64,000 nt of DNA from Arthrobacter rhombi (lineage in GTDB: Bacteria; Actinomycetota; Actinomycetes; Actinomycetales; Micrococcaceae): contig NZ_FUHW01000046.1 of NCBI RefSeq assembly GCF_900163545.1, forward strand, positions 1 through 64,000, written 5' to 3'. Positions within the stretch are counted from its first letter, which is position 1. Every line of letters begins with the position of its first letter. Below are positions 36,873 through 39,599 of the stretch, in pieces. The position numbers and the translations under genes are program-made. Below the pieces are notes generated by a model. It saw only the letters and a program-made list of their open reading frames with translations, searched no databases and had not been told where the DNA came from.

Positions 36873-36903
36873 GGGGCCGTGACATCCACCGTGTCACGGC
36901 CCC
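36873..36903 (+). terminator. 12-bp hairpin after glpK, probable terminator
   Basis: GGGGCCGTGACA (36873-36884) and TGTCACGGCCCC (36892-36903) are perfectly complementary around a 7-nt loop. No T run follows, as is common for actinobacterial hairpins. The right arm covers the expected -35 of the leuS leader promoter, so the element may have a second role. Confidence 0.65.
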
Positions 36904-36912
36904 GCCGTACTG

Positions 36913-36918
36913 TAGACT
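36913..36918 (+). promoter_or_regulatory. -10 box of the leuS leader transcript
   Basis: TAGACT preceded by TG, with its last base 6 nt before the ATG of the leader ORF. Transcription would start at or next to that ATG, giving a leaderless mRNA. GTGTCA (36891-36896) is a weak -35, 16 nt upstream. Confidence 0.55.
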
Positions 36919-36924
36919 GGCCCC

Positions 36925-36951
36925 ATGTCAGCAGTCCTACTTCTTTTCTAG
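36925..36951 (+). CDS. leuS leader peptide (MSAVLLLF)
   Basis: An 8-codon ORF, ATG TCA GCA GTC then CTA CTT CTT, TTC and TAG. Three consecutive Leu codons lie just before a stop that is 22 nt upstream of an intrinsic terminator, as expected for classical amino-acid attenuation of leuS. The Leu codons CTA and CTT are rare in this GC-rich genome, which would sharpen stalling when charged tRNA-Leu is low. No Shine-Dalgarno is seen; the -10 placement suggests leaderless translation. Confidence 0.7.
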   Translation: MSAVLLLF

Positions 36952-36998
36952 CCGGGCCCGAACCGTCCGGCTGCCCCTTGTATGCCAAGGGGTTTTTT
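36950..36998 (+). terminator. leuS attenuator: alternative hairpins and intrinsic terminator
   Basis: Terminator: CCCCTTG (36974-36980) pairs with CAAGGGG (36986-36992), followed by six T (36993-36998). Upstream, AGCCGG/CCGGCT (36950-36955, 36967-36972) is compatible with it. An alternative pairing of GGGCCCG (36954-36960) with CGG and GCCC (36968-36970, 36973-36976) would occupy the terminator's 5' arm. A ribosome stalled at the Leu codons would leave this alternative free; one at the stop codon would mask it. Confidence 0.75.
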
Positions 36999-37094: not shown

Positions 37095-39599
37095 GTGAGC
37101 ACAGAGGCACCCGGAACCCCGGAGACCGGCACCACCTACAGCTTTAGTGAGCTCGAGGCACGGTGGCAACCCGTATGGGAGGAACTGGGAGTCTTCACCC
37201 CCAAGGACGACGGCAGCGCCGAACGCCGCTACGTGCTGGACATGTTCCCGTATCCGTCGGGTGACCTGCATATGGGCCACGCCGAAGCCTTCGCCATGGG
37301 TGACGTGATTGCCCGGTACTGGCGCCAGCAGGGGTACGACGTCCTGCACCCGATCGGGTGGGACTCCTTCGGCCTGCCCGCCGAGAACGCGGCCATCAAA
37401 CGCAACGCCCATCCTGCGGAGTGGACGTATAAGAACATTGAAACCCAGGCAGCGTCCTTCAAGCGTTACGCCATCAGCGCCGACTGGTCACGACGGATCC
37501 ACACGTCGGACCCGGAATACTACCGGTGGACCCAATGGCTGTTCACCCGCTTCTACGACAAGGGGCTGGCCTACCGCAAGGACCACCCGGTGAACTGGTG
37601 CCCCAAGGACCAGACGGTGCTGGCCAACGAGCAGGTCGTCAACGGCACCTGCGAACGCTGCGGAACCGCGGTGACCAAGAAGTCCCTGAACCAGTGGTAC
37701 TTCAAGATCACCGACTATGCCGACCGTCTGCTCGAGGACATGGACGCCCTGAAGGGCCACTGGCCCGAACGCGTGCTGGCCATGCAGCGCAACTGGATCG
37801 GCCGCTCCGAGGGGGCGCATGTCGATTTCGTGATCCAACCGACCGACGAGGACGCTGCGGAGCGTCAGGTGACGGTCTTCACCACCCGGCCCGACACCCT
37901 GCATGGGGCAACGTTCTTCGTCGTTGCCGCCGACGCCGTCTTGGCCGACGATCTCGTGGCACCGCAGCACCGCGAGGAACTGGCCGCCTACCAGGATCAG
38001 GTCAAGGCACTGACGGAAATTGAACGTCAGTCCACCGAACGCACCAAGACCGGGGTGTTCCTCGGCAGGTATGCGATCAACCCGCTCAACGGTGAACGCC
38101 TGCCGGTCTGGGCAGCCGATTACGTCCTGGCCGATTACGGCACCGGGGCCATCATGTCAGTGCCCGCCCACGATCAGCGTGACTTGGACTTCGCCAGGAC
38201 CTTCGACCTGCCGATCCGCGTCGTCCTGGATACCGGCGAAGAGGACCCGGCAACCAGTGGGGTCGCCACGACCGGTGAGGGGACCTTGGTGAACTCCGGG
38301 GAGCTGGACGGCCTGGAGAAGGACGCCGCCATTGCCCGCGCCGTGGAAATTGTTGAAGCCGCAGGAACCGGCCAACATACGGTGAACTACCGGTTGCGCG
38401 ACTGGTTGCTGTCGCGCCAGCGTTTCTGGGGAACTCCGATCCCCATCATCCATTGCCCACGGTGCGGTGAGGTCCCGGTCCCCGACGACCAGCTGCCGGT
38501 GCGTCTGCCGGATGACCTGCGGGGGGAGCAGCTGGCCCCACAGGGCACCTCCCCGTTGGCTGCGGCCACCGACTGGGTCAACACCACCTGCCCCAGCTGC
38601 GGTGGTGCCGCAACCCGCGACACCGACACGATGGATACCTTCGTTGACTCCTCCTGGTATTTTCTGCGCTTCTTGTCCCCGGACTACACCGAGGGGCCCT
38701 TCGACCCGGAAGCGGCCGACGCATGGATGCCGGTGGGCCAGTATGTCGGTGGGGTCGAGCATGCGATCCTGCACCTGCTGTACGCCAGGTTCTTCACCAA
38801 GGTCATCCACGATCTCGGCTTGATCCAGGCCAGCGAACCCTTCTCCGCCTTGTTGAACCAAGGGCAGGTTCTGAACGGTGGCAAGGCCATGAGCAAGTCG
38901 CTGGGCAACGGGGTGGACCTGGGCGAACAGTTGGATAAGTACGGAGTCGACGCGGTACGCCTGACCATGATCTTCGCCTCACCGCCTGAAGACGACGTCG
39001 ACTGGGCGGATGTTTCCCCGGCGGCTGCCGGAAAGTTCTTGGCCAGGGCCTGGCGCCTGGCCCAAGACGTCAGCAGTGAGGTAGGGGCCGACCCGTCCAC
39101 CGGGGACCAGGGGTTGCGTACCGTGACCCACCGGGCGATCTCCGAAGCTGCCGACCTGTTGGATTCAGGAAAATTCAACGTCGTGGTAGCCAAGCTGATG
39201 GAAATGGTGAACGCCACCCGCAAGGTGATCGATTCCGGCGTCGGCGCCTCCGACCCGGCCGTGCGGGAGGCGGCTGAGGCCGTGGCCGTGATCCTGAGCC
39301 TGTTCTCCCCGTATACGGCCGAGGACATGTGGGAGCGTCTGGGCCACAGCCCGTCGGTGGCCAATGCCGGCTGGCCGACGGTGGATCCCGCGTTGCTGGT
39401 TCAGGACACCGTGGTCGCCATCGTGCAGATCAAGGGCAAGGTGCGTGATCGGCTCAATGTGCCGGCCGATATCGGCGAAGAGGAGCTGCGGGAACTGGCC
39501 TTGGCCTCGGAGACGATCCAACGGGCCCTGGACGGACGCGAGCTGCGAACGGTCATTGTCCGGGCGCCGAAGCTCGTGAACCTCGTTCCAGCCTCCTAA
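37095..39599 (+). CDS. leuS: Leucine--tRNA ligase
   Basis: Charges tRNA-Leu and edits mischarged amino acids. The 834-residue class I synthetase has H59-MGH62 in [11 protein letters not shown] (HIGH motif), the CP1 editing domain with [16 protein letters not shown] and [15 protein letters not shown], a zinc-type CPRCG/CPSCGG pair, and the MSKS form of KMSKS at 599-602 (KAMSKSLGN). It starts at GTG 37095 with GAAGGCG upstream, about 100 nt after the attenuator terminator. Expression is probably induced by leucine starvation through the leader. Confidence 0.98.

Follow-up and report, generated by a model that had tools for sequence, protein, structure and literature searches.

A probable ribosome-mediated attenuator with an apparently leaderless leucine leader upstream of leuS in Arthrobacter rhombi and its relatives

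The 64,000-nucleotide stretch of Arthrobacter rhombi DNA analysed here (the window) raises the question whether leuS is governed by a small leucine-rich leader and, if so, by which RNA pairing. The region lies between the end of glpK (36841) and the GTG start of leuS (37095). Read in order upstream of leuS, the window sequence has a TAGACT -10 hexamer, a gap of 6 nt, an eight-codon open reading frame (ORF), a first hairpin and an intrinsic terminator. The features are the following.

36908..36918, plus strand: promoter, T at -17 and the -10 hexamer TAGACT (36913-36918), with no recognisable -35
36925..36925, plus strand: predicted transcription start, the A of the leader ATG, 7 nt after the -10; gap conserved in relatives
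36925..36951, plus strand: leader ORF, MSAVLLLF-stop; from the sequence and its conservation in relatives
36937-39 (CTA, L1), 36940-42 (CTT, L2) and 36943-45 (CTT, L3), plus strand: putative sensing Leu codons
36950..36972, plus strand: hairpin 1 (36950-36957 with 36965-36972); covarying, and ribosome-sensitive in the fold model
36973..36998, plus strand: intrinsic terminator (36973-36980 with 36986-36993) and U tract; from terminator scan, covariation and fold
37095..39599, plus strand: leuS, leucyl-tRNA synthetase, the presumed regulated gene; from the ORF and tblastn matches in the family, 81-98% identity over the N-terminus

The leader codons are ATG TCA GCA GTC CTA CTT CTT TTC TAG. CTA and CTT make up 1.1% and 6.6% of the 350 Leu codons in the window genes and are thus rare, whereas CTG and CTC are the common Leu codons there and in the ORFs of the compared loci. 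The 5′ arm of hairpin 1 begins inside the leader stop codon, and the stem base of the terminator, G36973, lies 22 nt past it. The terminator core comprises CCCCTTG (36974-36980) and CAAGGGG (36986-36992), followed by six T (36993-36998), and 96 nt separate the U tract from the leuS start. The terminator scan recovers the site with two overlapping matches, compared with 0.5 +/- 0.7 in shuffled sequences. An earlier note on this DNA had described a -10 ending 6 nt before the ATG, the ORF with three consecutive rare Leu codons, a terminator 22 nt past its stop and then leuS; all of these are read directly in the window. At gathering thresholds, Rfam gives zero matches in the window, for T-box or any other curated riboregulator model. 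A perfect 12-bp inverted repeat at 36873-36903 (GGGGCCGTGACA/TGTCACGGCCCC) lies between glpK and the leader promoter, lacks a T run and ends 9 bases upstream of the -10. It is probably the 3′ hairpin of glpK.

The upstream regions of leuS were read in 90 Micrococcaceae genomes, with a Micrococcaceae MAG (98%) and Zafaria (89%) among the nearest relatives by LeuS N-terminus. In 82 of the 90 regions the terminator is preceded by a short ORF at a fixed distance from a TAnnnT motif, so the conservation expected by the earlier note for a Leu-codon leader and terminator is borne out. Named genomes with the element belong to Arthrobacter, Pseudarthrobacter, Paenarthrobacter, Sinomonas, Zafaria and Paeniglutamicibacter. 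It was not found at the Kocuria, Rothia, Micrococcus, Nesterenkonia and Yaniella loci read.

The gap between the -10 and the start codon is 6 nt in 60 and 7 nt in 22 of the 82 regions, as obtained by a search that permitted distances of 4-9 after TAnnnT and took the first one. The hexamer is flanked by T at -17 (95%), G at -16 (91%) and G at -14 (80%); the window genome reads TACTG where TGCGS stands in most relatives. Matches to a -35 box in the 82 regions are no better than in shuffled sequence, and the promoter is predicted to be of the extended -10 type. Together with the fixed gap, this places the predicted transcription start on the leader start codon or at most one base away from it. 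That the leader ORF of Arthrobacter rhombi would be leaderless is therefore well supported by comparison. The earlier note took leaderlessness to be a notable variant, which does not hold, since S. lividans leuL2, upstream of leuS, was reported in 2021 to be leaderless by RNA-seq (PMC8079986) and is a precedent.

The typical family leader is M-x-x-x-L-L-L-x-stop with first residues that are free to vary, and 61 of the 82 Micrococcaceae leaders have the LLL run. The best conserved Leu codon is L3, the second codon ahead of the stop. It encodes Leu in 76 of 78 anchored leaders (CTT in 53, CTA in 21, CTG in 2), both exceptions being rows mis-anchored by the analysis script. Leaders of the Glutamicibacter type (MNPKRNLV, MHPASSLV) have lost the run and have one Leu left, precisely at L3. 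Outside the Micrococcaceae, L3 is CTT in 32 of 33 distinct leaders, compared with 10.6-16.5% CTT in ORFs of the same loci. The Leu codons of close relatives, to which the earlier note had pointed as a check, are kept across most of the family; within the genus the triple run is present in the window genome only.

The sister leaders are MSAVLRLS and MSAVLRPS; the latter, from a MAG, has Pro at L3 and stands outside the count of 78. Their eroded runs read CTA CGT CCT (L003/L168) and CTA CGT CTT (L004), and CTA is the sole codon of the run common to them and the window genome, so that in this genus the response to Leu may be fading or tied to a particular codon. A degenerate leader occurs at L070 (G185:C14:21263-21913), where the start codon is now ATT and the Leu codons are lost, while the promoter and both hairpins are retained; it reads as a natural knock-out of the sensor ORF.

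Across the class, a covariance model, R1, built on 61 Micrococcaceae leaders, matches in at least 113 of 344 genomes, belonging to at least 43 of 116 genera, and the order-wide sample has the element in at least 53 of 198 genomes; the filters were strict, which makes all of these minimum counts. Of the class-wide loci fetched, 48 of 50 directly precede leuS. The recurrence of the arrangement across most of the family, and beyond it in many families of the class, argues for more than chance. Leaders outside the Micrococcaceae mostly end in LLLTEPR-stop, with GAG where the Micrococcaceae and some other groups have TAG. A single base would thus set the end of translation and leave the hairpin unchanged. 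In four loci (L133-L136, from genomes of 8-9 Mb), the peptide is identical to that of S. lividans leuL2, MRAVRLLLSEPR.

Two further model matches lie before other genes. L142 (G402:C1:127822-128917, minus strand) precedes a citramalate-synthase-like gene (MDLQGDFHVYDTTLRDGAQQEGL...), and its leader ends in GTG ATC ATC ATT CGC TAG (V-I-I-I-R-stop), followed by two adjoining hairpins and T7; the match resembles the leuS attenuator with Ile in place of Leu. L148 (G325:C86:84109-85214, minus strand) precedes an ilvB-like acetolactate synthase gene and has the leader codons ATT CTC GTA GTT (I-L-V-V) with the same two-hairpin layout. A general design is suggested by the recurrence of this layout, with Ile or branched-chain codons, before these two genes.

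The structure alignment comprises 61 distinct Micrococcaceae leaders. The covariation that the earlier note had proposed to look for is present in both hairpins, which coexist: changes on both sides occur in 6 of 8 pairs of hairpin 1 and 3 of 8 pairs of the terminator. Together the two helices have 94.4% of cells paired, compared with 41-52% when slid, and 9 covarying pairs, a covariation score reached by none of 500 shuffles. RNAalifold recovers the same two helices unaided. Even the third base of the stop codon is paired and covaries (pair 40-82), TAG occurring with GGC and TGA or TAA with GGT.

The ribosome was modelled under the assumption that it masks RNA up to 15 nt beyond the first P-site base. 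Placed at L1, it covers the RNA as far as the first base of the stop codon, and the mean probability of hairpin 1 is 0.86 (1.0 in the window genome). With the ribosome at L2, L3 or the stop codon hairpin 1 is lost (mean probability 0.01 at L3 or stop). In the fold model, a ribosome at L2 or L3 would open hairpin 1 by masking its 5′ arm, and the Leu codons are placed as in a classical attenuator, so that a stalled ribosome masks the arm of the next hairpin. The terminator has a mean probability of 0.97-1.0 in all ribosome states modelled.

Several pairings that might compete with the terminator were rejected. The antiterminator of the earlier note, GGGCCCG (36954-36960) with CGG/GCCC, has 45.6% of cells paired and no covarying pairs over the 61 relatives; its -9.5 kcal/mol falls far short of the -25.3 reached by hairpin 1 and the terminator together, and no modelled ribosome state populates it. 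Pairing of the terminator 5′ arm with the hairpin 1 loop scores 0.29, compared with 0.37 in loop shuffles. Pairing of the Leu run with the terminator 3′ arm covers 83.9% of cells without covariation and equals the shuffles, which points to plain pyrimidine/purine complementarity. No conserved upstream competitor of the terminator was found in the Micrococcaceae leaders.

The element is probably a ribosome-mediated transcription attenuator of leuS, and most likely raises leuS expression when charged tRNA-Leu is short. Comparison of the relatives' sequences establishes the promoter position, leader ORF, Leu codons, both hairpins and synteny with leuS; induction of leuS by Leu limitation, through lower termination when hairpin 1 is open, would follow from the mechanism proposed. 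Transcription would begin at the leader AUG, and a ribosome would load directly on the 5′ end and translate MSAVLLLF. When charged tRNA-Leu is ample, the ribosome would get to the stop codon and leave, hairpin 1 would re-form beside the terminator, and RNA polymerase would stop at the U tract. When it is scarce, the ribosome would wait on the rare Leu codons, L3 above all, covering the 5′ arm of hairpin 1 and keeping it open, and more polymerases would read through into leuS. Two points favour this direction: no codon is more tightly constrained than L3, and it is precisely the hairpin 1 arm that a ribosome stalled on L3 masks. Since hairpin 1 would likewise be covered while a ribosome sits on the stop codon, the model needs fast release.

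How hairpin 1 would act on the terminator is a matter for a tentative idea, that it is a pause hairpin which makes the terminator efficient. A T-G step 10-12 nt past hairpin 1 is present in 65% of 88 distinct tails and in 25% in loop shuffles, a comparison uncontrolled for relatedness, and G at -10 of the candidate pause site occurs in only 24 of 57. The over-representation of the T-G step fits a pause hairpin, but is only a hint. Counting against the attenuation model as a whole are the lack of an antiterminator, with a terminator that forms throughout, and the erosion of the Leu run (LRL, LRP) in the nearest relatives.

A trp-type attenuator, in which ribosome stalling lets a 2:3 antiterminator (GGGCCCG:CGG/GCCC or a relative) break the terminator, can be drawn in the window genome, and a 2005 paper describes the leuS elements of Streptomyces as classical ones, comprising an antiterminator hairpin and a terminator hairpin (PMC1262725). 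It is nevertheless unlikely here, given that the pairing is unconserved, that shuffled hairpin 1 loops pair with the terminator 5′ arm at least as well as the natural upstream sequence does, and that the terminator forms in all modelled states. Since the mutually exclusive antiterminator was sought and not found, the element is not to be filed as a classical trp-type attenuator. The lack of one does not speak against ribosome-mediated attenuation.

The logic might also be opposite, a ribosome stalled at L1 leaving hairpin 1 free and the formed hairpin hindering termination. The formation of hairpin 1 at L1 and its loss at L3 and stop in the model agree with this, but the best conserved codon is L3, which alone is kept in Glutamicibacter-type leaders, and untranslated RNA would read through too; such a switch is considered improbable. 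The remaining alternative dispenses with Leu sensing: the terminator would set a fixed low level of leuS or insulate it from glpK, and the small ORF would be incidental. It would suit some members in which hardly any of the Leu run is left, or none at all (g23 type, G002), and the absence of the element from the loci read in Kocuria, Rothia, Micrococcus and Nesterenkonia. The conservation of ORF length, start position and the L3 codon over many families with diverged flanks makes it very improbable, and attenuation that responds to charged tRNA-Leu is preferred.

Attenuators of the trp/leu type in gammaproteobacteria have a leader peptide with cognate codons, a first hairpin by the stop codon and a terminator downstream. 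The leuS element shares all three, but has no conserved antiterminator and is predicted to start at a 5′-terminal AUG instead of a Shine-Dalgarno site. The Corynebacterium ilvBNC attenuator is likewise actinobacterial, with a leader that starts no more than one base from the 5′ end of the transcript and a hairpin ahead of the terminator; in its three-hairpin model an antiterminator overlapping the terminator was proposed and tested (PMC11857589), unlike the leuS element, where none is conserved. Mycobacterial polycysteine ORFs (Canestrari et al. 2020, cited in PMC13236596) are leaderless sensor ORFs with a run of the sensed codon, as predicted for the leuS leader, but involve another amino acid and other genes, and Seliverstov et al. 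saw no terminator hairpin in mycobacterial cys leaders (PMC1262725). Work on the ilvB and leuA leaders of S. coelicolor, as cited in PMC1262725, gave results at odds with classical attenuation, which also counts against the attenuation model.

The closest counterpart is the leuS attenuator predicted in S. coelicolor and S. avermitilis (Seliverstov et al. 2005, PMC1262725). In sequence and structure the element is homologous to this Streptomyces (leuL2) element: model R1, derived from Micrococcaceae, also recovers leaders that encode precisely the leuL2 peptide. Both lie upstream of leuS and have a Leu-run leader, a hairpin and a U-rich terminator; the leader, reported to be leaderless in leuL2, is predicted to be so in the window as well. 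Compared with leuL2 (LLLxEPR-stop at its end), the window peptide (M-x-x-x-L-L-L-x-stop) is three codons shorter, with TAG for GAG at the same spot of hairpin 1. The coexisting hairpins and the lack of a conserved antiterminator imply either that actinobacterial attenuators switch in another way or that fold models miss it. A tentative extension, on which we would not insist, is a class-wide actinobacterial type without antiterminator, in which the position of a ribosome on leaderless mRNA may reach the terminator only through the stop-codon hairpin adjoining it. The leuS attenuator predicted 20 years ago in two Streptomyces species is present, with a fixed and apparently leaderless geometry, in about a third of the sampled genomes of the class.
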